Positions 1,735 to 46,178 of a DNA stretch of 64,000 bases are shown here, in pieces. Source of the DNA: a virus. The stretch covers positions 35,214 to 99,213 of IMG/VR virus record IMGVR_UViG_3300032242_002232. One strand, written 5' to 3'. Both the position numbers and the translations under genes were made by a program. The notes under the pieces were generated by a model that worked only from the letters and a program-made list of their open reading frames with translations, was not told the origin of the DNA and did not search any database. The number at the start of each line of letters is the position of its first letter. Position 1 is the stretch's first letter.

Positions 1735-2397
1735 CTAGCCCTCAATAGGTTCTTCCTGTGACATCTCACCAGTTACGATATTGAGCCGTAATGGTTTGGT
1801 GATGTCCCACTCCGATAGGATGAACTTACCACCCCATGGAACTTTACCTTTCCCACCACATCTATGACAGTCTGCCTGTTCACGATGCGGGACATTTCTT
1901 GTTTCTCCTTGTTTAGTACAGTTAAGATTGATATGGAATGTTTTATTACGACTGTCAGTGACTGGTCGCCACCCATCTTGTCCTGTACACAAGAACGTGT
2001 GTCTCTTTTGTCCACTGCAATTGCCACAGCGTCTCTCTTTCAAAGGAGTTTTAGCTGAAGCAGCGGTAGATATCAACAGCTTTTGTTTACGATAGATTAG
2101 ATCATTTAAGTTAGCGTAGTTAGCAACTGCCCTACGCCACGATGCTCTCATGAACATAGTTACCGGAGGAATGACAACCATTCCATTTGGTTCGTAGATA
2201 ACAAGCGGGTTATCTTTTGACCAATAAGGTGCAATAGATACCTGATCATTCTCTAGTCTAAATGCGTAAAGGCTACGCTCATACAATGGGCGCTTGCCTT
2301 CTGGATCTTTACCTTCTTCGATATGTTTAATGGCTGAGTCATAGTCATACACTCTCAGCCATTGATTATGGGGAAGAAGTTGAGCTTTGTCTACCAC
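1735..2397 (-). CDS. Unknown protein with a zinc-knuckle-like cysteine region
   Basis: I do not recognise this 220-residue protein. The C-terminal half carries three cysteine clusters: CGNC near residue 123, an isolated CTG, and CHRCGGKGK near residue 180. The last resembles a DnaJ-type CxxCxGxG knuckle, so it probably binds zinc. The start is GTG with an AAGGG ribosome-binding site nine bases upstream; it overlaps the 3' end of the WhiB gene by 32 bp, implying co-transcription and perhaps translational coupling. Confidence 0.75.
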   Translation of the reverse strand: MVDKAQLLPHNQWLRVYDYDSAIKHIEEGKDPEGKRPLYERSLYAFRLENDQVSIAPYWSKDNPLVIYEPNGMVVIPPVTMFMRASWRRAVANYANLNDLIYRKQKLLISTAASAKTPLKERRCGNCSGQKRHTFLCTGQDGWRPVTDSRNKTFHINLNCTKQGETRNVPHREQADCHRCGGKGKVPWGGKFILSEWDITKPLRLNIVTGEMSQEEPIEG

Positions 2398-2686
2398 GTA
2401 TATATTCCCTTCTCTCGTCTTCTGTTAAACCACCCCACATGCCGTGGGATTGGTTGGTTCTTATTGAGAAGTCAAAGCATTCCTTTGTTACAGAGCAGGC
2501 ATTGCAGATAGCTCTAGCTTTTGCTATTCTATCGGCTTTATCCCCACCCCTTTCTTGGTCTTCATAGAAGAACACGTCCGAATCAACTTCCCTACACAAC
2601 CCGCGTTGTTGCCAATCCCATTGGTTCGGTCTTGGGTCTAACGGCATTGTGTTAGAAGGATATGACTCATACTTTTTCCTAGACAT
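2366..2686 (-). CDS. WhiB-family Fe-S transcriptional regulator
   Basis: This 106-residue protein shows the WhiB signature: Cys31, Cys61, Cys64 and Cys70 (C-x29-C-x2-C-x5-C), which would ligate a [4Fe-4S] cluster, followed by GMWGG at 82-86 (the family G[VI]WGG turn) and a basic ERREYIRGR tail for DNA or sigma-factor contact. WhiB proteins are confined to actinobacteria and their phages and bind region 4 of the primary sigma factor. The phage copy may redirect host transcription, as TM4 WhiB is known to do. The start lies two bases after the upstream gene's stop, so translation is likely coupled. Confidence 0.95.
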   Translation of the reverse strand: MSRKKYESYPSNTMPLDPRPNQWDWQQRGLCREVDSDVFFYEDQERGGDKADRIAKARAICNACSVTKECFDFSIRTNQSHGMWGGLTEDERREYIRGRQSSTSSP

Positions 2687-23179: not shown

Positions 23180-24268
23180 GTGGCAACGATTCAAGTTCTT
23201 TCTAATCGGCTTAGAGCTGAGATCGGCGACTTAGGAAGATCGTTTACTGAAACATTTACCGGTGATGGGGTTACTAAAAGATTTCAACTCCCTTACGCTC
23301 CAGTAAATGGAAGAAGTCTAAGAGTTACAGTAAATGGTTCTGACCAATCCCCAACAACTTCAGTAGAAGAAGTTAACGGTCTATTTGAGTTAAGCATTAT
23401 CCCATCTAACAATGCCGTCATCAGTGTTTCCGGCGTTGCTTATAAGTATTTTACCGACACTGAAATTCAATACTACATTAGCCAAGCTTTCTATGAGCAT
23501 GCCCATACAGCCACAGATAGCAATGGAAGCCTAAATACCCTAGCTAGCATGCCCTTTGTAGAAGAATATCCGCTAGTAACTCTTGCCACCTCTATGGCAC
23601 TTTATACGCTGGCTACCGACGCCTCTTTTGATATTGACATTGCCTCGCCTGATGGGGTCACTATCCCCCGTTCACAGCGATATCGCCAACTAATGGAGAT
23701 GGTACAAAGCAGAAAAGAACAATATAAAGAACTTTGTTCAATGCTGGGTGTCGGTATGTTTAGGATCGAAGTGCAGACTCTTCGCAGAATTAGCCGACGC
23801 ACAAACCGTTATGTACCTGTTTATCGTCCTCAAGAACTTGATGACGGATCCCTCCCAATTAGAGTTTCATTACCTATGCCTACTTATGGGGACATGACTC
23901 CTCCGGGACCCGCGGAACCTAAAGATCTATTTGTTGTTGCCGGAGATAGTTTTTCTAAATCATTTGTTTTTGATCATGATCTTACTACCTACACACCAGC
24001 GGCCCAATTACGTTTATTTCCCGAAATTCCGGCGGATCAAGTTGGCCCACTGCTTCTTGCAAACTTTACCATTACAAAGTCAGCTTCAGTTGTGGGGGGC
24101 ACCTTAAACACCCTAACGCTATACTTAAGCGGTACAGCTACAACAGACTTGCCACGCACATGCTACTGGGATCTTCAGATGACTAATAACTCGGACGGAA
24201 CTGTTAAGACATACGTGTCTGGCAAGTTCTTTACTAAACCTCAAGTTACTACCACCCAAGGAAATTAA
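23180..24268 (+). CDS. Head-tail adaptor-like protein with extra beta domain
   Basis: This 362-residue protein starts at GTG with a TGGAGG site. The N-terminal part ([11 protein letters not shown]..., [19 protein letters not shown]) has the short-helix layout of gp6/gp15-type connectors. Inserted after residue 27 is a beta unit ([15 protein letters not shown]). The C-terminal 100 residues ([28 protein letters not shown]) resemble immunoglobulin-like or BppU-type extensions of tail-associated proteins. It lies between capsid and adhesin genes. The adaptor assignment is moderate; it could also be a fibre-anchoring protein. Confidence 0.65.
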
Positions 24269-26436
24269 TGGCTAACACACCTAATTTAATCGGAATGCCG
24301 GATGATGCAAGTAATGATCCTTCGGTCTATCTCCTTGGAATAAATAACTCTAACGGAGCTACTGGCCCAACAGGAACACAAGGTCCACAAGGACCAACAG
24401 GACCTACAGGTTCTAAAGGCGCAACCGGTGCTACCGGTGTAGGCGCAACCGGTGCAACTGGTCCATCTGGACCATCAGGTCCAACAGGTTCTACAGGTCC
24501 GCAAGGAAATGTAGGTCCAACAGGTAATACTGGTCCTACCGGTATTCAAGGAAATATTGGAGCAACAGGCCCTACAGGTGCCGCGTCAACAGTTCCAGGT
24601 CCTACAGGTTCACAAGGCTCTACTGGCCCAACAGGTCAACAAGGGCCGACAGGGCCGACAGGATCTAAGGGTGATACTGGTTCAATCGGTGCTACCGGTT
24701 CTACTGGCGCAACTGGTCCTATTGGGCCACTCGGAGCAACAGGTACTCAAGGTCCCACAGGACCAACTGGCTCTACAGGTGCAACAGGTTTGCAGGGTGT
24801 TACTGGACCCTCTGGCCCAACAGGCGGACAAGGAATTCAAGGATCAACTGGTCCTTCAGGAGCTACAGGTGTAGCTGGTCCACAAGGAAATACAGGACCT
24901 ACAGGTTCTAAAGGCGACACAGGTCCACAAGGCGTAACAGGTCCACAAGGTCCTTGGGGCGTAACTGGACCTACAGGTTCACAAGGTACCCAAGGTTTAC
25001 AGGGTAATACTGGTCCTACTGGTGCCACTGGTGGTCAAGGTCAAATTGGACCAACAGGTGTAACGGGACCAACAGGCGCTACTGGTGCTGCATCAACAGT
25101 GCCTGGCCCAACTGGTGCACAGGGACCAACAGGTCCACAAGGTATTTCAATCAAATACCAAGGAACACTTGGTAGCGTTGGAGCACTTCAATCTATTACA
25201 GGCCAAACTATAAATGATGCATACATCATTGGTAAAGATCTTTGGGTTTGGGAAGGCAACACTTGGGATAACGTAGGTGCAATTGTTGGTCCAACTGGTC
25301 CTATTGGTTTAACTGGTCCTACTGGAGCTACGGGCTCCACTGGTGCCGCATCTACCGTTGCTGGGCCAACAGGATCAACAGGACCTACTGGTTCTGTGGG
25401 ACCAACAGGTTCTACTGGTCCGCAAGGTACCCAAGGTATTCAAGGTGCAACCGGATCTACTGGCGCAACAGGATCTACTGGTCCTACTGGCGCCGCTAGC
25501 ACAATCCCAGGACCAACGGGATCAACTGGCGCTACCGGTGCCGGACTTAACGTACTCGGCACATACTCAACTCTTTCAGCGCTTCAAGCTGCGCGCCCAA
25601 CAGGCACTGCTGGTGATGCATATATTGTTGCAGGCAGTTTATATGTTTGGAATGGTTCTGCATGGACACTTGGTGGAAACATTCAAGGACCAACAGGCGG
25701 TACCGGTGCAACGGGAGCAACAGGATCAACAGGTGCAACAGGTTCTACTGGATCAACTGGCTCTAAAGGTGATACTGGTCCAGGTAAATTTACATTTGCA
25801 ACAACCCCACCATCTAACCCTGTACTCGGAGATCATTGGATTGAAGATGCAACGGGAATTGAATATACATGGAGCACAGATGGCGTAAGTACTTTTTGGG
25901 TAGAGCTTGTTCCTACAGGTTATTTAGGACCTACTGGCCCACAAGGTCCTACCGGAGCAGCCTCTACAATACCTGGCCCTACAGGTCCGACAGGTAATAC
26001 CGGTGCTACAGGAGCAACAGGCGCCAGCGTTACTGGCCCACAAGGACCTACAGGTTCTACTGGCGCAACAGGGGCAACCGGCTCAACGGGGTCTATCGGC
26101 GCTACAGGTCCAGGATCTACATACACAATTTCTTATCCTTCCGGGTCTTATATTGTTACAACTGACGACACAGCCACCTCGTTCTATATGGCCTCAAATA
26201 CTTCGGTAAACTTTCAGTTGCCGGCTAATATATCTTCACCTATACCTATTGGGTCAACAGTAACAGTTACTCAGTATGGTCTAGGTCAGGTGACTATCTC
26301 CGCCTATTTAGGTACAGCATCTATTGTCTCTAATGCATCTACAGCAAATTCTCCTAAGCTTAGGGCGCAATTTTCTTCAGCAACATGCGTAAAAATTGGA
26401 TTAGATTCGTGGCATGTAATTGGAGACATAATTTAA
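24268..26436 (+). CDS. Collagen-like fibre protein
   Basis: This 722-residue protein consists largely of Gly-X-Y triplets, mostly GPT, GAT, GST and GPQ, from about residue 30. The helix is interrupted by three short globular inserts: near 292-335 and 428-470 (both of the type [17 protein letters not shown]), and near 505-545 ([16 protein letters not shown]). The last 90 residues are a beta-rich head. It should form trimeric triple-helical rods. Pro sits mainly in X and Thr in Y, a pattern in which glycosylated Thr stabilises collagen in other systems (e.g. Bacillus BclA). Start coupled to the previous stop. Confidence 0.92.
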
Positions 26437-27342: not shown

Positions 27343-27705
27343 ATGGCAATTAGTTTCCCAGCGTCCCCAACGCTTAATCAAGTCTATACATACGGTAATC
27401 GTAGTTGGAAGTGGACAGGTACAGCTTGGGTTTCACAAAGCGTATCTACAGCCCCAACAGGTCCAACAGGCCCAACTGGAGCAACTGGATCTGCATCTAC
27501 AGTTCCTGGACCACAGGGACCAACTGGTGCGACAGGATCTACCGGAGCAACAGGCGCCACGGGAGCTGCATCTACAGTTGCGGGACCGACAGGTTCAACG
27601 GGACCAACGGGTGCTCAAGGGTATAGTATTGTCAACTTAGACGGTGGATTTCCAGATAGTACGTATGGTGGAATCACAGCAGTAGATCTTGGAGGAGTTA
27701 GCTGA
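27343..27705 (+). CDS. Short collagen-like fibre protein
   Basis: This 120-residue protein has an N-terminal module ([26 protein letters not shown]), a common phage fibre attachment unit, followed by about 18 Gly-X-Y triplets (GPT, GAT, GST, with AST interruptions) and a short non-collagen end. It resembles the large collagen-like protein in repeat composition. Its stop overlaps the next start. Confidence 0.82.
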
Positions 27706-28109
27706 TGGCAGTTCAATTTCAGTTTAGACGCGGTACAGCCTCTCAGTGGACCGCAGCTAACACAATTCTTGCATCTGGTGAGCTTGGACTAGAATCCGAC
27801 ACAAACAAATTTAAGATTGGTAACGGCACTTCCGGCTGGAATGCGCTATCATATGCCTCAGGTACTGCAGGTGCAAATGGAGCTACAGGAGCTACCGGAG
27901 CAACTGGAGCATCAGTAACTGGAGCTACAGGAGCTACAGGGGCCACCGGTTCAGTTGGAGCCACAGGTCCTGCGGGAACTCCCGGTGATTCAAATCTAAA
28001 CAAAAAAGTAATTGATGATGCATTTCTTGGAACTAACTTTTACTTCAACAAGCAGTTTTTAACATCAACTGTTGCTCAAACTACTATTTCACCGATTACG
28101 TTAATCTAG
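27705..28109 (+). CDS. Fibre protein with tail-fibre N-terminal domain and collagen-like tail
   Basis: This 134-residue protein opens with FRRGTASQWTAANTILASGELG and FKIGNGTSGWN, the N-terminal domain shared by many phage fibre and tropism-determinant proteins, which binds the baseplate or neighbouring fibre. Residues 50-95 are Gly-Ala-Thr collagen-like triplets, and the end is a short beta segment. It may be a connector between larger fibres. Confidence 0.82.
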   Translation: MAVQFQFRRGTASQWTAANTILASGELGLESDTNKFKIGNGTSGWNALSYASGTAGANGATGATGATGASVTGATGATGATGSVGATGPAGTPGDSNLNKKVIDDAFLGTNFYFNKQFLTSTVAQTTISPITLI

Positions 28110-37965: not shown

Positions 37966-39018
37966 ATGAAAGTAGCAGTATACGCAATTGCTCTTAACGA
38001 AGAGCAGTTTGTTAAACGTTGGTATGAATCAGCTATAGAAGCTGACTATCTCCTTATAGCTGACACCGGATCTACAGATAATACGGTAGAGTTAGCTAAG
38101 TCACTAGGAATTGTGTGCCACACAATTAGTGTAAAGCCTTGGAGGTTTGATGATGCTCGCAATGCTAGCCTGTCTCTTATACCCAGTGATATTGATTATT
38201 GCATTGCTCTTGATCTAGATGAAACTCTAGTTCCTGGTTGGCGCCAACATTTAGAGGTTGCCAACACAAACAAATGGACTCGTCCACGATACCTATTTAC
38301 TACAAGCTGGAATCCTGACGGATCACCAGGCATGCAGTTCAGCGGTTTTAGAATCCACGCTCGCAACGGTTACCGTTGGGTATATCCAATACATGAAATG
38401 CCGGAACCCTACAGAATCGAAGAGACTACCGGATGGGTAGATCTACAGATCGAACACCATCCCGATGATTATAAATCTCGTGGGCAGTACTTGCCCCTAC
38501 TACAAGAGGCCGCTAAAGAAAACCCAGATGATGATAGGTGCGCTTTTTACTACGCACGTGAACTTTACTTTTACCAGCTCTATGAAGATGCTGCGGAAGA
38601 ATTTAAACGCCACCTATCATTACCTAAAGCTTGGTGGGTAGCTCAGCGCGCAGCTTCCTACAGATACCTTGGAGAATGCGATCCAGACAACGCAGTTACC
38701 TGGTGGACAAAAGGATACCAAGAAGACCCCGTTCGTAGAGAGTGTGCGGTAAAGCTTACCGAGTATTACTACAAAAAAGAAGACTGGGTTATGTGTAGAG
38801 AGTGGGCTAAGAAAGCTCTAGACATAGAAACTAAAAGCTTAGACTATTTCTGTGAGCCTTGGGCCTGGGGATCTTTACCAAACGATTACCTAGCTATAGC
38901 CTCCTACAACCTGGGGGAGTACGAAACTGCCCTAGAACAGGGTAGAATTGCCTATAGTTTAGACCCGACTAATGAGCGCTTAGCCGTTAATATTAGTCAT
39001 TACACCGAAAAACTATAG
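37966..39018 (+). CDS. GT2-family glycosyltransferase with TPR-like C-terminus
   Basis: This 350-residue protein has a GT-A fold N-terminus: VAVYAIALNEEQFVKRW, ADYLLIADTGSTDNTVELA, and a DxD-type ALDLDETL near residue 85 for metal-nucleotide-sugar binding. Residues 175-345 are TPR-like helices (EDAAEEFKRHLSL, YETALEQGRIAYSLDP), a protein-interaction layout. This combination is typical of enzymes that glycosylate proteins or surface polymers. Placed amid fibre genes, the phage fibres (Thr-rich collagen-like repeats) or a host glycan are the likely acceptors. Its GGGGGCG site is adequate. Confidence 0.88.
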   Translation: MKVAVYAIALNEEQFVKRWYESAIEADYLLIADTGSTDNTVELAKSLGIVCHTISVKPWRFDDARNASLSLIPSDIDYCIALDLDETLVPGWRQHLEVANTNKWTRPRYLFTTSWNPDGSPGMQFSGFRIHARNGYRWVYPIHEMPEPYRIEETTGWVDLQIEHHPDDYKSRGQYLPLLQEAAKENPDDDRCAFYYARELYFYQLYEDAAEEFKRHLSLPKAWWVAQRAASYRYLGECDPDNAVTWWTKGYQEDPVRRECAVKLTEYYYKKEDWVMCREWAKKALDIETKSLDYFCEPWAWGSLPNDYLAIASYNLGEYETALEQGRIAYSLDPTNERLAVNISHYTEKL

Positions 39019-39026
39019 GAGTATAA

Positions 39027-39371
39027 ATGGCTACAGCCAACTATTCGATTCTAGGTCAGGCGCAACCAGTAGGGTCAAATATTGATCTATTTGCTTGTCC
39101 CGCTGCTACTCAGGCGGTCCTATCAACAATCGTAGTAAGTAACACTACCGCTACCTCAGCTACAGCTACAGTATATGTACGCAAGGCTACCGGTACCTCT
39201 CCGGCGGCGGCTGGAACAAATAACGCTATTATGTACGCAGCGCCAATCTCAGCAAACAGTCTTCAAACCCTAACGATTGGCATCACATTGGGTGCCTATG
39301 ATACTATTACTGTATCTTCCGGAACGTCCGGAGCTATTACATTTCACGCATTCGGAACAACGGTGGCATAA
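39027..39371 (+). CDS. Small beta-sandwich fibre protein
   Basis: This 114-residue beta protein (AVLSTIVVSNTTATSATATVYVRKA, ISANSLQTLTIGITLGAYDTITVSS) resembles the product at 31852. No catalytic motifs. AGGAG precedes the start; the stop overlaps the next gene. Probably a virion or fibre subunit. Confidence 0.65.
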   Translation: MATANYSILGQAQPVGSNIDLFACPAATQAVLSTIVVSNTTATSATATVYVRKATGTSPAAAGTNNAIMYAAPISANSLQTLTIGITLGAYDTITVSSGTSGAITFHAFGTTVA

Positions 39372-39574
39372 TGTCAAAACGACAATTTCCAGAACCTTCT
39401 GCAACTGACTACGTATTAGAGTCAACATCTAACATCAAGGAAGACCGCACTGCTACAAAAGTGGTTTCTCCTACAACTGTTACTACCGGCGCTCTTCGTA
39501 ACATCTATGCTTCCACTAATGCGCCCGTTGCTAGCGATGGCGCTGATGGAGACATCTGGCTTAAGTACGTGTAA
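39371..39574 (+). CDS. 67-residue fibre-associated protein
   Basis: This short protein (YVLESTSNIKEDRTATKVV...GDIWLKYV) ends with the DGADGDIWLKYV motif that is common at the end of small phage fibre units. It is linked by TAATG to the previous gene and four bases from the next. Function unknown. Confidence 0.55.
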   Translation: MSKRQFPEPSATDYVLESTSNIKEDRTATKVVSPTTVTTGALRNIYASTNAPVASDGADGDIWLKYV

Positions 39575-39577
39575 GCA

Positions 39578-40960
39578 ATGGCTGAGTACATCAAGCAGGG
39601 CGGTACTTGGAAGCAAGTATCCGATGATACTACATCTAGCACAGTAGCTTACATTAAGGTAGGTGGTGTTTGGCGCGGAGTAAACGCGCAGTACATTAAA
39701 GTAGCGGGAACTTGGCGAGCAGTTTCTGCGTTTGCGGCAACATATACAGTCCCTAACGTTGTAGGTTTAGATCTAGCCTCAGCACAGGCCATTATCACCA
39801 GTTCAGGAAACGCGGTAGGTTCTACATCAACTACTGCTTCTGGAGCGACTTCTGGAAACAACGGACAAGTTCAATCACAGTCCGTAGCTGCAGGCACGTA
39901 TAGCTCTGCTCAAACCATTAACCTAGTAACATATGCGTACTCTGCACCGATTATTAATCAGATTATTTCTGTAGGTGTTATTGCTACCCCTGCACAGCAA
40001 GACTCTATATCTAGCTATGATACCGCTGGCTACATCGGAGATACGTTACATATTTATGGTAATTTTACTAAGAGCATTACTAACATTACTGTTGGCGGTA
40101 CGTATGTAAGCTACAGTCAAACCTCGTCGAGTATATCTTGGACTATGCCAAGTATTTCTGCTGGTTCTTACAGCGTCCAGGTCTTCGATGGTCAAGTACC
40201 TCTTTTATCTGCTTTTACGGTAACTAACTACGGTACACGCCCATCAATTCAGATTGCTTTTAATCCTATTCAGATCCAGGTACCTCAGATTCAGATTGCG
40301 TTTAATCCTATTCAGATTAACTTTAATCCCATCCAGATCCAGGTACCTAATGTTAACTTTGTTACTGTTTTAGTTGGTGCAACAACAATTATTCAAATTA
40401 GATCTTCACAAGTTCAAAATATCTTCTACCACTCCTACTATATTAGCCCTTACTACGGTGTACGAGTAAGCTGTATTCACGGAGATACCTTTATGAAAGT
40501 ATATGAGGGAGACACGATTACAACTAAAAAGGCTAGAGATATTGAGCCTGGCGATGAGTTAGTTGGTGTGGTGTTTAAGGAACTTGACCCTAGTGTTAAG
40601 GTAAATACCTATGACTGGCAGGCCACAAGCCTTACCTACGATACTCTTGAAAAGACTACTGTTGTTAAAGTTGAGCCGTCAGTCCATGAACGCTTCATGT
40701 ACTTTAACGATGACGAGACTTCAGTATTTTCTATGTCAGAGCCTATGCTTGTAGGGCGAAACGGTCAATACGAGTTCTTTGCTTCTGGTATGATTCTGGA
40801 AGGCGATACTCTTTACAAGCTTAAATCAGACCACTCTGGTTATGAAGAGGTACTCGTAGAAAAGATTACATTTACTAGAGGAGAGGATGACGGGTTTAAT
40901 TTCCACTGCGAACCTGATCACGTTATCGTAGCTGGGGATTACATCGTTCACAATAAGTAA
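39578..40960 (+). CDS. Modular fibre protein ending in a Hint (intein-like) domain
   Basis: This 460-residue protein has distinct modules. Residues 4-50 carry three YIKxGGxWRxV repeats. Residues 57-118 form a PASTA-like unit (VPNVVGLDLASAQAII). Residues 124-216 look like an IPT/TIG sandwich. Residues 224-257 are a striking IQIAFNPIQIQVP repeat. A Hint domain follows from Cys299 (SCIHGDTFMKV, KARDIEPGDELVG) to the end, HN at 458-459 with only one Lys after it. Hint domains of hedgehog/intein type perform N-S acyl shift self-cleavage. Here it would cleave or cross-link the fibre's own C-terminus. The GTAAGCA leader gives a weak ribosome-binding site. Confidence 0.88.
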   Translation: MAEYIKQGGTWKQVSDDTTSSTVAYIKVGGVWRGVNAQYIKVAGTWRAVSAFAATYTVPNVVGLDLASAQAIITSSGNAVGSTSTTASGATSGNNGQVQSQSVAAGTYSSAQTINLVTYAYSAPIINQIISVGVIATPAQQDSISSYDTAGYIGDTLHIYGNFTKSITNITVGGTYVSYSQTSSSISWTMPSISAGSYSVQVFDGQVPLLSAFTVTNYGTRPSIQIAFNPIQIQVPQIQIAFNPIQINFNPIQIQVPNVNFVTVLVGATTIIQIRSSQVQNIFYHSYYISPYYGVRVSCIHGDTFMKVYEGDTITTKKARDIEPGDELVGVVFKELDPSVKVNTYDWQATSLTYDTLEKTTVVKVEPSVHERFMYFNDDETSVFSMSEPMLVGRNGQYEFFASGMILEGDTLYKLKSDHSGYEEVLVEKITFTRGEDDGFNFHCEPDHVIVAGDYIVHNK

Positions 40961-41562
40961 TGACATACTCAAGGGCAGAAGAGTTACTACCGGGTGTTAA
41001 AGCCTATTACGATGTTTGGCCAGAGTCCCAGGACTTCATAAAAAAACTAGAGCTTGACTCTGAAAAAGGTCTTGCTTGGGTTCCTGCAGCTATAAATAAA
41101 GAGGGCAAAGGCCCAGTAGTAGACACCCAAATTAGGGTTTTAGATGTCCTTAGCATAACTAGGTTTGAATCTGGGTTGAATACTGATAGGCCTTTAGTTG
41201 AGGCGGCTTACGACGCTTACACAAAACTGTCTTCAAACTTAGACCCAATTGTTGATGAGTATGTTAAAGAGTTCAGCGTAGCGGTGACCTCCAAAGAGCC
41301 TTACCAAATACTTAGGTATAAGGAGAGTAACTTCTTTAGATATCACGTAGATGACTCCCCAAATAGGCCTAGACGATTGTCCTATTGCTATTATGTAAAT
41401 GACGATTACGAGGGCGGTGAGCTTCACTTTGGAAAATTTGATAAGACCATTAAACCCGAAGCCGGGCAGCTAGTCGTATTTCCATCCAACTATCTGTATG
41501 CTCATGCCGCTAGACCAATACTAAACGGAACAAAATATGTGGTGTCATCATGGTGGAATTAA
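40960..41562 (+). CDS. 2OG-Fe(II) oxygenase (prolyl-4-hydroxylase-like)
   Basis: This 200-residue protein has the double-stranded beta-helix signature of P4H-type dioxygenases: FRYHVDDSP with His129 and Asp131, YVNDDYEGGELHF, FPSNYLYAHAARPI with His182, and KYVVSSW with Lys192 for 2-oxoglutarate. The enzyme should hydroxylate Pro (or Lys) in a protein using O2, Fe(II) and 2OG. The collagen-like Gly-Pro-rich fibres encoded 14-17 kb upstream are natural candidate substrates. TAATG links it to the Hint-fibre gene. Confidence 0.9.
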   Translation: MTYSRAEELLPGVKAYYDVWPESQDFIKKLELDSEKGLAWVPAAINKEGKGPVVDTQIRVLDVLSITRFESGLNTDRPLVEAAYDAYTKLSSNLDPIVDEYVKEFSVAVTSKEPYQILRYKESNFFRYHVDDSPNRPRRLSYCYYVNDDYEGGELHFGKFDKTIKPEAGQLVVFPSNYLYAHAARPILNGTKYVVSSWWN

Positions 41563-42236
41563 CTTTTGTGTCTATAGACGGGGTGCCCAGCCCCGAACCT
41601 GATAGAACGAGCACTACCCTTCCTAAATGGTACAGGGAGGCTTCACGGTATTTTGAGGGCACTAAGAACTCTACTTTTAAGAACTGCATGGCTTTTTTTG
41701 ATGCCATGAGTGCGGGGTACGTACTTATTACTCCTTGCGATATTACTGTTATACAGAAAGAGGGCAAGCCTATAATTGAGCTTGATTCCCGGTTTCAAAC
41801 CTTCATATCTTCTCGTGCCCCTATGGACCAATTTCATGCACCAGAGGGCTACCATAAAGAGCATTATGCGTTCTTAATGCAGTGGGGGATATCAACCCCG
41901 CCAGGTTATAGCAGCCTATGCATTTCGCCCTTAAACCGTTTTGATCTCCCATTTATAGTCACTAACGGGATTATAGACAGCGACAACTTATCTACCCCCG
42001 GGAACGTACCCTTCTTCATCAGAGAGGGTTACGAGGGTGTGATTCCTGCGGGAACCCCCTACCTCCAAGTAATCCCTTTTAAGAGGGAGGAGTGGAACGC
42101 TAAGTCAGTAAGGGAAGTTGATTTACTAAACTTAAGGAAGTACAATAAGATCGGATTTAAACTTCGAGGCGTGGTTAGCAACTACTACCGAGAAAACTAC
42201 TGGGTTAAAAAAATCTACAGGAAGAGGGCTCAATGA
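41550..42236 (+). CDS. DUF6065-like protein
   Basis: This 228-residue protein matches the DUF6065 pattern: KWYREA near the start, TFKNCMAFFDAMSAGYVLITPCDI at about 42-65, FHAPEGYHKEHYAFLMQWGISTPPGYSSL, and PYLQVIPFKREEW. The family recurs near 2OG oxygenases and glycan genes in aquatic phages. Function unknown. It overlaps the oxygenase gene by 13 bp and the next gene by 4 bp. Confidence 0.75.
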   Translation: MVELTFVSIDGVPSPEPDRTSTTLPKWYREASRYFEGTKNSTFKNCMAFFDAMSAGYVLITPCDITVIQKEGKPIIELDSRFQTFISSRAPMDQFHAPEGYHKEHYAFLMQWGISTPPGYSSLCISPLNRFDLPFIVTNGIIDSDNLSTPGNVPFFIREGYEGVIPAGTPYLQVIPFKREEWNAKSVREVDLLNLRKYNKIGFKLRGVVSNYYRENYWVKKIYRKRAQ

Positions 42237-42985
42237 TTATCCAGATTATCGGTCTGCCAGGATCTGGTAAGACTACTTTAGCTACCGCACTTAAAGAGCG
42301 CATCAACGCAGTTCATTTAAACGCGGATTACGTACGCTCCACCATTAACTCTGATTTGGGTTTTGCCCCAGAGGATCGTGTAGAACATGCACGCCGTATG
42401 GGGGAAATGGCACGTATGCTGTCCGGCCAGGACCTAGATGTAGTCGTAGACTTTATATGCCCAACACAAACAACACGAGAAGCTTTTGGTAAGGCTGACA
42501 TAGTTGTATGGATGGATACCCTTAAGGAAGGGCGCTTTGAAGATACAAACAAACTATGGGAAACCCCTACATCCTTTGACTATAAGTTTGAGACATTTGA
42601 TGCAGATGCTAATGTCAACAATATTATCTTTACATCCAACCTTCATGACTGGAAGGCGCCAACAACCCTAATGCTTGGTCGCTATCAACCATGGCATGAA
42701 GGGCACCACGCCCTATACCATGAGGCTAAGAACCGTACACAACAGGTAATGCTTGGGGTACGCAACACTCAAGGTACCAGCCCTAAAGACCCATTAAGCT
42801 TTGATGAAGTAAAGGGCTATATATCAGCTGATCCTGCTATGAATGGGGCCATGGTTATCAAGATGCCTAATATTACAAACATCGTATACGGCAGAGATGT
42901 TGGGTATAAGATCGAACAAGTTAAGTTAGGAGATGAAATTGAAGCCATTAGTGCTACTCAAAAACGTAAAGAAATGGGTATCTAG
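42233..42985 (+). CDS. APS kinase fused to a nucleotidyltransferase
   Basis: This 250-residue fusion has an N-terminal adenylylsulfate kinase (CysC) domain: Walker A GLPGSGKTT at 7-15, HLNADYVRSTINSDLGF, DRVEHARRMGEMA, and VVVDFICPTQTTRE. It would phosphorylate APS to PAPS, the sulfate donor. Residues 143-250 are a second domain with GRYQPWHEGH (HxGH at 155-158), the motif of adenylyl/cytidylyltransferases of the NMNAT type, and SATQKRKEM near the end. The fused domain may make a precursor or be a salvage enzyme. It overlaps DUF6065 by 4 bp. The sulfotransferase two genes on is the expected PAPS user. Confidence 0.88.
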   Translation: MIIQIIGLPGSGKTTLATALKERINAVHLNADYVRSTINSDLGFAPEDRVEHARRMGEMARMLSGQDLDVVVDFICPTQTTREAFGKADIVVWMDTLKEGRFEDTNKLWETPTSFDYKFETFDADANVNNIIFTSNLHDWKAPTTLMLGRYQPWHEGHHALYHEAKNRTQQVMLGVRNTQGTSPKDPLSFDEVKGYISADPAMNGAMVIKMPNITNIVYGRDVGYKIEQVKLGDEIEAISATQKRKEMGI

Positions 42986-43018
42986 CCTGCTTGACCTTAT
43001 GTCGTTAGGGGCGGGACA

Positions 43019-43228
43019 ATGAACGTAACCCATTCAAGATCTTTTACTAAAGCCGTTACTTGGCGACTTACTGGAACTTTTGACACCTTTATTCTTTCAT
43101 ATGTAATTACTGGAAAAGCTAAGCTCGCTTTAGCAATTTCAGGGATGGAGATATTTACCAAAATATTTCTTTATTACGTACATGAACGCGTTTGGAACAA
43201 AGTTCAGTGGGGAAGAGATGAAGTTTAA
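43019..43228 (+). CDS. DUF2061 small membrane protein
   Basis: This 69-residue protein matches DUF2061: RSFTKAVTWRLTGTFDTFILSYVITG, LALAISGMEIFTKIFLYYVHERVWNKV. It has two hydrophobic helices (about 18-31 and 36-54). DUF2061 genes commonly sit near or are fused to APS-kinase genes, and this is exactly the order here (CysC, DUF2061, sulfotransferase). A transport or membrane-anchoring role for sulfate activation is plausible but unproven. GGGGCGGG precedes the start. Confidence 0.85.
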   Translation: MNVTHSRSFTKAVTWRLTGTFDTFILSYVITGKAKLALAISGMEIFTKIFLYYVHERVWNKVQWGRDEV

Positions 43229-43985
43229 GTCTTTTTATCATTTGCATGCCCCAAAGACTGGGGGTAGGTTTGTACTCAATAATGTCCTGCACCTTCTGTA
43301 TTCGCACATGGAGGCTGCAGGCATTGAGGTTATTAACAATGTTCCTATTGAGCATCCTGGTGCACACAGCGCTTGGCTCCCACAAATTAATGACGATACC
43401 TACGTATTCTCTACATTCAGGGACCCAGTAACACATTCCTGTAGCCTGTTTTTTCATATGGTGGCGATGGAGGATGCACCACAGTTTTTTCCAAACCCCC
43501 CTGTATTTACACCTAAACTTTTAAATTCAAGATACCTTGTAAACTACATGACAGCTGGTGGGTTTAATGGGTATTTGATGAGCAATTTTCAGTCTAAAAA
43601 CTTTTTGTATGATCGCCCCTTTTTTGGTGGGCCCATTGAAAAAGATATAGACCCGGCAATTAAAGACGATGTTTTGATGCAAAGAATTCGCAGAACAAAC
43701 CTCCTTTTACGCATGGAGCAGATACCCCAAAACCCAGAAGTTTTAGCTGCCAAGCTGATAGACGACCTGGAACTACCTATTACTATCGAGCAGTTTAAAC
43801 AAGATTATGCAGCTAAGCTGGATTTTCTTACAGTCCTAAACCCCCTGCTTATAGTAAAAGAAAACGCAGATTTGGCTCGTTCTTTGACCGAAAAGGATCT
43901 GGAAACCATTAAACCTTATATAGCTGTTGATCAGGGTATATACTCTGACGATAGTGTATTTTATACATTTGATCAGGAGAACTAA
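43218..43985 (+). CDS. PAPS-dependent sulfotransferase-like protein
   Basis: The 255-residue product starts at MKFKSFYHLHAPKTGG; an earlier ATG 36 bp upstream would give more overlap with DUF2061. The 5'-phosphosulfate loop is HAPKTGGRFV at about 10-19, and the 3'-phosphate motif is TFRDPVTHSCSLFFHM near 75-90, the two signatures of carbohydrate/protein sulfotransferases. It transfers sulfate from PAPS to a hydroxyl group, on a glycan or Tyr. The APS kinase two genes upstream should supply PAPS. The substrate may be the phage fibre or a host surface glycan. Confidence 0.82.
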   Translation: MKFKSFYHLHAPKTGGRFVLNNVLHLLYSHMEAAGIEVINNVPIEHPGAHSAWLPQINDDTYVFSTFRDPVTHSCSLFFHMVAMEDAPQFFPNPPVFTPKLLNSRYLVNYMTAGGFNGYLMSNFQSKNFLYDRPFFGGPIEKDIDPAIKDDVLMQRIRRTNLLLRMEQIPQNPEVLAAKLIDDLELPITIEQFKQDYAAKLDFLTVLNPLLIVKENADLARSLTEKDLETIKPYIAVDQGIYSDDSVFYTFDQEN

Positions 43986-44792
43986 ATGGAAGTCAGTACG
44001 CATTGTAACGGGAATGTAAAGATCATCCAGGGTTTCTTCACTAAAGAAGAAGCTGCTGAGCTGTCATCTTGGTTTGACACTTTTCCATTCGAAGACTTAG
44101 AGGTAAGCTCTGTTAAGTTTTGGGGTAAGAAGCAGTTCCATCACAGCCTTCAACATGACCCTAAATGGGCTCCGATTTTTGCTCCAGTAAAGCACATCAC
44201 CGACACAATTGATGAGCGTATTAGACAAGCCCTCGACTTAGTGCAGCCCGGCCAAACCTGGCATGCATGGCCTACTGCCTTCATTAAAATGTACCCTGGA
44301 TCTAACCCAAATGATTATGATGCAGATAAAATGGAGATGTTTTATCACATGGATAATCAAGCGCATATGGCTACCTTGATTACCTGGGGTGGGGTTATGT
44401 ATCTCAACGAAGACTACGAGGGTGGCGAAATTAGATACCCAGTTTATGATTTTGAATACAAGCCTGTTGCAGGTAGCATGGTTTTGCACAGCGGTTTTAC
44501 GGTTCACGGAGTAAAGAAAGTTACAAAGGGTAATCGTTACGGATTGACTTCTTTAATTAGCCGAGACGGGCACTGGAATAATGGCTGCTTACCTACACCT
44601 ACAGGTAAACCTGAAGGACCTTCATATATCTACCCTATGGGTTATTGGGGTCGCCGTGTTGGTGACGACCGTGTTGATCCCGGAGCGGATATCAAGATTT
44701 TACGTCCAGATGGAACTACCCGACCATATTGCGATAACCCATCAGTAGGCATCGACCTATGGAATAAAAAGTATATGAGGACGTATAGTTAA
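43986..44792 (+). CDS. Second 2OG-Fe(II) oxygenase
   Basis: This 268-residue protein has FYHMDNQAH with His121 and Asp123, YLNEDYEGGEI, SMVLHSGFTVHGVKKV with His174, and GNRYGLTSLIS with Arg184 for 2OG binding, matching the prolyl-4-hydroxylase-type fold. It is distinct in sequence from the oxygenase at 40960, so the two may act on different residues or substrates. It begins one base after the sulfotransferase's stop codon. Ends at the junction with tail-neck genes. Confidence 0.88.
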   Translation: MEVSTHCNGNVKIIQGFFTKEEAAELSSWFDTFPFEDLEVSSVKFWGKKQFHHSLQHDPKWAPIFAPVKHITDTIDERIRQALDLVQPGQTWHAWPTAFIKMYPGSNPNDYDADKMEMFYHMDNQAHMATLITWGGVMYLNEDYEGGEIRYPVYDFEYKPVAGSMVLHSGFTVHGVKKVTKGNRYGLTSLISRDGHWNNGCLPTPTGKPEGPSYIYPMGYWGRRVGDDRVDPGADIKILRPDGTTRPYCDNPSVGIDLWNKKYMRTYS

Positions 44793-45367
44793 TGCGCGGA
44801 GAACGCAGAATCGGTAGATTTAATATCCCTAATGAAAGGTCCTCTATTATTGCTGGGACTTCTTCTGAGCTTGTTCGTACGGTAGGGAACTCTGTTCAAT
44901 GGTATATCTATAACTCAGTGGCTACTGTTGTAGACCCTATTTACGATGTTGGTAGTTCAGCTGGTGGACGTGTGTGGTACGACCCTTTGACTATCCCAGT
45001 AATTAAAGCGGTTGTTTATCAGGGTGCTTCTATGCAGAATGACCGTGGTTTTTATAATACAGATATCTTGCGAATCACCATGAATATGGACGTTATTGAG
45101 GGGGCTACCAACCTGTACGGTATGGAGGCTGAAACCTCACATCACTTTAAGGACATACTAACTAACCCCGATCATTTTCTTCGGGATAGGGTTGTATTTA
45201 GAAATGAAGTATTTAGTCCGGACCGTATTCAAGGAATGGGCCTTGTAAATAACAGGTACACCGTTTTATCCGTTGACTGTGTTCAGGTCAACTCTGAAGA
45301 AATGGTCAATGACAGCCAGTTCCAGTACTTTGCAAACTGGAATGCCACAGATGAGCCGGTCAATTAA
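44792..45367 (+). CDS. Neck/head-completion-like protein
   Basis: This 191-residue protein is beta-rich (SVQWYIYNSVATVVDPIYDVG, RVVFRNEVFSPDRIQGMGL, TVLSVDCVQVN). Its position at the start of the tail region and size suggest a head-closure or neck protein (stopper-like). The family is not certain. TAATG links it to the preceding oxygenase gene; the next gene begins at the base after its stop. Confidence 0.65.
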   Translation: MRGERRIGRFNIPNERSSIIAGTSSELVRTVGNSVQWYIYNSVATVVDPIYDVGSSAGGRVWYDPLTIPVIKAVVYQGASMQNDRGFYNTDILRITMNMDVIEGATNLYGMEAETSHHFKDILTNPDHFLRDRVVFRNEVFSPDRIQGMGLVNNRYTVLSVDCVQVNSEEMVNDSQFQYFANWNATDEPVN

Positions 45368-46156: not shown

Positions 46157-46178
46157 AGCCCCCGAAAGGGGGCTTTTT
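46157..46178 (+). terminator. Rho-independent terminator
   Basis: AGCCCCC/GGGGGCT with a GAAA loop followed by TTTT, seven bases after the stop at 46150. Confidence 0.88.

Follow-up and report, generated by a model that had tools for sequence, protein, structure and literature searches.

The DNA considered here is a stretch of 64,000 nucleotides, called the window, that corresponds to bases 35214-99213 of a 99,213-bp IMG/VR virus record (IMGVR_UViG_3300032242_002232), and the subject is a group of enzyme genes at window positions 37966-44792. The presence of terminase, portal, tail sheath, tail tube, and baseplate wedge genes in the record indicates a phage with a contractile tail. WhiB-like genes are found at window 2366-2686 and in the part of the record upstream of the window; since WhiB reportedly occurs only in actinobacteria and their phages (PMC10611076), the host of this freshwater phage is probably actinobacterial. 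An earlier note, made from the DNA alone, had described 37966-44792 as a module for the glycosylation, hydroxylation, and sulfation of fibres. All of the genes that it named are present, as open reading frames (ORFs) packed end to end, and the tailoring genes do sit in the tail-fibre operon. Furthermore, gene types of the module recur together in many independent phage contigs, that is, beyond chance. In the list that follows, PAPS is 3'-phosphoadenosine 5'-phosphosulfate, APS is adenosine 5'-phosphosulfate, 2OG is 2-oxoglutarate, NMNAT is nicotinamide mononucleotide (NMN) adenylyltransferase, and the basis of each assignment is given in parentheses.

37966..39018, + strand: GT2 glycosyltransferase (GT) with C-terminal tetratricopeptide repeats (TPRs), a constant frame gene of the fibre locus (Pfam, PHROG)
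39027..39371, + strand: small beta-rich fibre protein, frame gene (slot comparison, PHROG)
39371..39574, + strand: 67-aa protein like the C-terminus of tail-fibre proteins, frame gene (PHROG, slot comparison)
39578..40960, + strand: variable fibre with a PASTA domain and a C-terminal Hint/intein-like domain at 40472-40957 (Pfam, slot comparison)
40960..41562, + strand: 2OG-Fe(II) oxygenase 1 (PF13640, 5e-16; HVD...H...K)
41550..42236, + strand: DUF6065-like protein, phrog_7084 (PHROG, iterated profile)
42233..42985, + strand: APSK-NT, a lidless APS-kinase-like P-loop kinase fused to an NMNAT-like nucleotidyltransferase, the proposed PAPS supplier (Pfam, profiles, fold)
43019..43228, + strand: DUF2061 small membrane protein (Pfam, 3e-20)
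43218..43985, + strand: divergent, predicted PAPS-dependent sulfotransferase; the ORF opens at 43182 (motifs, iterated profiles, model)
43986..44792, + strand: 2OG-Fe(II) oxygenase 2 (phrog_61, 4e-12; NCBIfam Fe2+-dioxygenase, 1e-4; HMD...H...R)
44792..45367, + strand: structural-region frame gene that closes the cassette slot, with no family match (slot comparison)

Comparison with related loci (designated L plus a number) reveals a common frame, in which the GT is followed by a pair of small fibre genes, then by a variable fibre, and finally by the structural gene at 44792; the slot for a cassette of enzyme genes lies between the last two. In the window and in L003, L067, and L080, the cassette holds sulfotransferase, oxygenase, APSK-NT, and DUF2061 genes in varying order, and the variable fibre is of the Hint or the Pro-Thr-repeat (PT-repeat) type. 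In L004, L005, L006, L009, and L011, the frame has a PASTA/FN3 fibre, the structural gene follows directly, and the slot is empty. The variable fibre at 39578-40960 is thus itself swapped for PT-repeat or PASTA/FN3 fibres among relatives. Consequently, the enzyme genes are both co-located with structural fibre genes and co-vary with them, as would be expected of a phage system for post-translational modification of the virion, on what is a small sample of slots. More distant relatives carry DUF6065, GlcNAc-transferase, O-methyltransferase, or tryptophan halogenase genes around the GT.

The sulfotransferase gene probably starts at 43218, as judged by homology. Taken alone, the window protein has no match in Pfam, PHROG, NCBIfam, or the PDB sequences; single-sequence searches are empty, and the curated cut-off of PF03567 (Sulfotransfer_2) is not reached. 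Its relatives were reached only by way of the replacement gene in neighbouring phages and by iterated profiles. Those phages have a different sulfotransferase in the same slot, and the L003 version passes PF03567 at 22.8 bits against a cut-off of 22; an IMG/VR scan with this family yielded 80 of 155 loci. Profiles seeded with either the window or the L067 protein end up with almost identical sets (103 and 102 matches, respectively). The window protein has both of the PAPS motifs that the earlier note had ascribed to it, HAPKTGG and RDPVTHSCS, and when it is aligned with its relatives (52 sequences in all), the H, P, K, and G of HxPKTxG (5'-PSB) and the R, P, and S of the 3'-PB motif (R-[DN]-P...S) are invariant. 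The window protein is 16-25% identical to its viral relatives. Searched against the PDB, the family profile finds heparan sulfate 6-O-sulfotransferase (4e-5) in three collinear segments. An AlphaFold2 model (pLDDT 80, pTM 0.82) is sulfotransferase-like: among the Foldseek matches listed, 50 of 50 belong to the sulfotransferase superfamily, with probabilities up to 1.00. Given the motifs, the profiles, and the predicted fold, it is nearly certain that the protein performs PAPS-dependent sulfotransfer. A small Cys4 zinc-ribbon protein (DUF6171-like) is encoded directly 3' of the sulfotransferase in L003 (5930-6193), L067, L080, and L088, and a similar tail is seen, weakly, at the end of the GlcNAc-transferase in L016; this protein may be an enzyme-guiding module.

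The donor for such a reaction would come from APSK-NT. As the earlier note had proposed, this protein is a fusion of an APS-kinase-like and a nucleotidyltransferase domain (PF01583, 6e-16, plus a CTP_transf_like motif). The kinase half, aligned to 3uie and 2yvu, keeps the P-loop, D-x-V-R, N..LGF, and EDR elements, whose residues we take to have their usual roles at the APS site, and 50 of the 50 Foldseek matches listed for it are APS kinases or PAPSS. However, the lid of APS kinases, KGLYxKARxGEIxxFTG, is absent in the APSK-NT sequences inspected, and matches end near residue 85-97. The C-terminal half has the sequences GRYQPWHEGH and ISATQKR, that is, the H.GH and ISxTxxR motifs of NMN adenylyltransferases, with H155, G157, H158, A241, T242, and R245 invariant. 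A reading of this half as an ATP sulfurylase finds no support in profile searches; its GRDxG element presumably resembles one in ATP sulfurylases. Moreover, no match to PF01747 (ATP sulfurylase), CysD, or CysH families was found in the whole 99-kb record. As first read, the claim of PAPS synthesis is therefore incomplete, the ATP-sulfurylase domain and the lid both being missing; PAPS synthesis by APSK-NT is plausible, not something to be read directly from the protein.

APSK-NT is very common in aquatic phages (at least 555 loci), and DUF2061, the identity of which is confirmed, lies no more than two genes after it in 30 of 40 dereplicated loci. DUF2061 was also considered as a general marker of sulfation and rejected, because among 30 cellular loci that contain it (about 3 kb each), only 1 has an APS-kinase gene next to it. 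Also seen in these phages are PnuC-like half proteins of 74-90 aa (cluster c23, e.g. L161 1167-1391), which are widespread and sometimes encoded just upstream of APSK-NT, while NodU-type carbamoyltransferase genes (cluster c53; L159, L095, and others) lie about five genes from APSK-NT in large aquatic phages.

Sulfotransferases are found near APSK-NT more often than chance would predict, with the qualification that the association tests count related phages as independent and their p values are uncorrected for shared ancestry. Of 42 APSK-NT records, 13 have the window sulfotransferase family (Fisher 1.8e-5); when the whole records of the GT family other than those of the cassette carriers are considered, neither this sulfotransferase family nor APSK-NT occurs in any of the 47. 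A Pfam scan of 40 dereplicated APSK-NT loci gave Sulfotransfer_1, 2, and 3 in 6, 5, and 2, respectively, of 143 near proteins; they are not among the listed families (those with at least two members) of 141 far proteins from the same loci. Counted by cluster, sulfotransferases are present in 10 near versus 2 far loci (Fisher p 0.005). In addition, APSK-NT and DUF2061 stay constant while the adjacent sulfotransferase switches among unrelated families (L088, L089, L091, L092, L106, L107, and the window): it is Sulfotransfer_1-like in L089, belongs to clusters c221 and c529 in L091 and L092, and is of the HxPKTG type in L107 and the window. This pattern, with the kinase pair constant and unrelated sulfotransferases exchanged next to it, is the one expected from a dedicated supply of sulfate donor.

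The remaining cassette genes are two distinct 2OG-Fe(II) oxygenases and the DUF6065-like protein. Both oxygenases have family matches, as listed, and both keep the HxD...H iron triad and a distal basic residue (K in the first, R in the second), which bears out the earlier description; the second has no Pfam match and was recognised via PHROGs and NCBIfam only. The DUF6065 label survives only by way of intermediates: the window protein has no match to PF19541 at its cut-off, but L188, a distant member of the same iterated-profile family, matches PF19541 at 8e-42.

In the frame, the identity of the GT is firm (PF13704/PF00535 above cut-off; phrog_13126, E 6e-109; C-terminal TPRs). Its place in the tailoring module, as first described, is not upheld, since it is a gene of the fibre frame and is carried even by relatives without a cassette. 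A search of related phages for enzymes beside collagen-like genes, which had been suggested as a check, shows that the GT family adjoins such genes in 23 of 54 dereplicated loci versus 6.3 expected (about four times chance). Over residues 264-347, the TPR region of the window GT weakly matches PF23558, a prolyl 4-hydroxylase peptide-binding domain (26.3 bits, cut-off 27), and it is a possible docking site for a fibre peptide. The Hint/intein-like end of the variable fibre (window 40472-40957, + strand) reads CIHGDTF...ARDIEPGDELVGV...FHCEPDHVIVAGDYIVHNK-stop; it matches archaeal PolII inteins over the full length but weakly (5bkh, E 0.099), and the block-B His that is usual in such domains seems to be missing. 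This domain could serve in self-cleavage or covalent attachment of the fibre. Features outside 37966-45367 that concern the fibres and their transcription are the following.

24268..26436, + strand: collagen-like fibre, a candidate substrate (Gly-X-Y triplets)
27343-27705 and 27705-28109, + strand: two short collagen-like fibre genes (collagen-like repeats)
46157..46174, + strand: strongest terminator-like hairpin downstream of the module (hairpin scan)

The fibre encoded at 24268-26436 has 142 Gly-X-Y triplets in runs, with Thr at Y in 87 of the 142 and Pro at X in 53 of the 142; Gly-Pro-Thr collagens that bear glycosylation are known from other systems. The hairpin scan gave no plus-strand stem comparable to that at 46157-46174 within the module, and a promoter scan of the region gave fewer matches than in shuffles. 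From gene order, the cassette would be expressed together with the late structural genes.

Relatives of APSK-NT are also found outside phages. About 45 SAR11 genomes have the family, mostly in the form of two neighbouring genes that keep the order of the domains. In L251-L291, the genes for the lidless kinase and a small NMNAT-like nucleotidyltransferase overlap and lie near betaine/Rieske/methanethiol-oxidase-type genes. ATP sulfurylase was detected in 2 of 48 SAR11 genomes with the family and CysD in 0 of 48, these being mostly incomplete single-cell genomes in which absence is indicative only. Because PF03567 is present in just 2 of the 48, the SAR11 sulfotransferases, if they are used with the kinase, would be mostly of other families or divergent. 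A bolder proposal, which we consider doubtful, is that phages and those SAR11 that lack a detectable canonical ATP sulfurylase use a two-domain PAPS synthase, composed of the lidless kinase and a sulfate-adenylating NMNAT-type enzyme, and that in phages it feeds exchangeable sulfotransferases acting on the phages' own glycosylated, hydroxylated fibres.

Taken together, these results are best explained by a fibre locus carrying an exchangeable cassette that tailors the adhesin and includes its own PAPS supply, a reading in which we place slightly better than even confidence. From the observed gene content, slot, recurrence, swapping of sulfotransferases, and linkage of GT to collagen, the following substrates and order of steps can be proposed. 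The resident TPR-bearing GT2 would glycosylate fibre proteins, its natural target perhaps being the Thr-rich Gly-Pro/Ala-Thr collagen-like fibres or other Thr-rich shafts. The two oxygenases, with their active sites intact, would hydroxylate side chains of fibres. PAPS would come from APSK-NT, whose N-terminal half would serve as the 3'-kinase, while an adenylyl intermediate might be made or fed in by the C-terminal adenylyltransferase. The sulfotransferase would then transfer sulfate from PAPS to a hydroxyl group on the fibre or on the glycan that the fibre bears, with DUF2061 as a small membrane partner; the location of the cassette within the fibre operon and its change together with the tip make one or the other of these the likely acceptor. 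Exchange of the cassette along with the fibre tip would alter the surface chemistry of the adhesin and thereby host recognition or protection. The earlier idea that the phage tailors its own adhesins is thus favoured by context (the fibre operon, the GT-collagen linkage, the variation of the cassette with the tip, and the linkage of sulfotransferase and kinase), but the GT has to be taken as lying outside the cassette.

Several observations weigh against this reading. The sample for the slot comparison is small, the four cassette carriers being relatives; 29 of 42 APSK-NT records are without the window sulfotransferase family; the APSK-NT of Casjensviridae and DLP_6 has neither a fibre setting nor that family, and in large aquatic phages APSK-NT is often distant from fibre genes. 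In addition, the Foldseek TM-scores of the sulfotransferase model are modest (0.27-0.48), with no E-value below 0.001 among the matches listed. Other points favour particular rivals. The strongest overall, since some cassettes contain polysaccharide-type genes, is that the cassette sulfates or decorates host surface glycans during infection, e.g. to block superinfection or mask debris, and lies near fibres because both set surface interaction. L091 and L092, whose cassettes hold several glycosyltransferases, a sugar epimerase, and a radical-SAM gene, would also fit polysaccharide; the best match of the sulfotransferase profile is to a glycan (heparan sulfate) enzyme, and SAR11 kinase relatives lie near lipopolysaccharide-type genes in L250 and L296. 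However, the cassette is in a late fibre operon and varies with the tip, the GT adjoins collagen, and no secretion or membrane-anchored transfer machinery is seen beyond DUF2061. We regard this explanation as credible but unlikely.

For APSK-NT taken alone, the strongest rival is NAD salvage, in view of its NMNAT-like second half and of the NMN-transporter-like family near it in three cases. Here, APSK-NT would have nothing to do with sulfation and would combine, in the manner of NadR, a kinase with an NMN adenylyltransferase; the sulfotransferase would draw on host PAPS, and the rest would be accidental accessory genes. By profile, the C-terminal half does match NMN adenylyltransferases (NadM, 2qjt, 1.8e-6), with a weak match to pantothenate synthetase as well, and has their motifs; the PnuC-like NMN-transporter family near APSK-NT (three neighbour proteins) makes a role in NAD metabolism possible, and the absent lid is a further point in its favour. 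On the other hand, no ribosylnicotinamide kinase domain was found in APSK-NT, the top matches of the kinase half by both sequence and fold being APS kinases; different sulfotransferase families recur beside APSK-NT; and in L292, L293, and L294, SAR11 lidless kinases without the nucleotidyltransferase are followed directly by a sulfotransferase-like gene (motifs judged by eye). The domain order of NadR is also the reverse of that in APSK-NT. NAD salvage thus seems improbable as an account of the whole. Least probable by far is a set of classical auxiliary metabolic genes, with viral cysC boosting host sulfate assimilation and the oxygenases unrelated. Viral cysC genes are commonly assigned to sulfur metabolism, and a report on lake viromes (PMC8066274) counts cysC among such genes, but a reading as assimilatory sulfate reduction was rejected, because the record is without a match to ATP sulfurylase, CysD, or CysH; furthermore, the genes lie in a fibre operon, and the neighbouring sulfotransferases consume PAPS instead of reducing it.

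If the adhesin-tailoring reading is correct, phages sulfate and hydroxylate their own adhesins by means of a plug-in cassette that is swapped along with the fibre tip. This would add a new layer of host-range chemistry, one that is missed by sequence-based prediction of receptor binding. The literature treats viral cysC and halogenase genes as auxiliary metabolic genes (PMC8066274, PMC10611076); on the same condition, some of the viral cysC genes, and neighbouring sulfotransferase, halogenase, and 2OG-oxygenase genes so classified, may instead tailor virions and not alter host metabolism. Finally, the unusual kinase/nucleotidyltransferase pair, which the phages share with SAR11 genomes where ATP sulfurylase mostly escaped detection, raises a simple question of enzymology. 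In keeping with the earlier note, the open literature searched, which leaves subscription journals mostly uncovered, describes neither the sulfation of phage fibres nor this combined set of genes as a system.

Parts of the proposed system have known counterparts. APSK-NT shares with PAPS synthetases and APS kinases (CysC, PAPSS1/2) the kinase fold and the P-loop, D-x-V-R, N..LGF, and EDR motifs, but differs in having no lid (KGLY...FTG) and in its partner domain, which is NadM-like, C-terminal, and about 105 aa long rather than an ATP sulfurylase. The SAR11 pair has the same two domains in the same order; there, however, they are separate chromosomal genes near betaine/methanethiol-type genes, and the papers retrieved describe no function for the pair. 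The window sulfotransferase resembles heparan sulfate 6-O-sulfotransferase and the Sulfotransfer_2 family in both PAPS motifs and in collinear segments, and its L003 homologue passes the Pfam cut-off, whereas the window protein itself is below detection by every family library. Phage-encoded glycosylation of virions is known, e.g. in cluster F mycobacteriophages (Maravista announcement, PMC11256854), where phage-borne glycosyltransferases are likewise inferred to act on the phage's own structural proteins; in that case, the target is the capsid rather than collagen-like fibres, and PMC11256854 mentions no genes for sulfation, PAPS supply, or hydroxylation. The Actinomycetia phage DSL-LC01 (PMC10611076), also a WhiB-bearing freshwater actinophage, has a GT that is 56% identical to that of the window phage and lies downstream of two collagen genes, in the order collagen, collagen, hypothetical, tryptophan halogenase, GT. 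Tryptophan halogenases lie beside fibre GT/collagen genes or beside APSK-NT in L007, L164, L237, and L327 (DSL-LC01), and these positions suggest that halogenation is a further step of fibre tailoring, although the authors of the DSL-LC01 study interpreted its halogenase as an auxiliary metabolic gene (PMC10611076). Rather than the sulfation cassette of the window phage, DSL-LC01 has a tryptophan halogenase.

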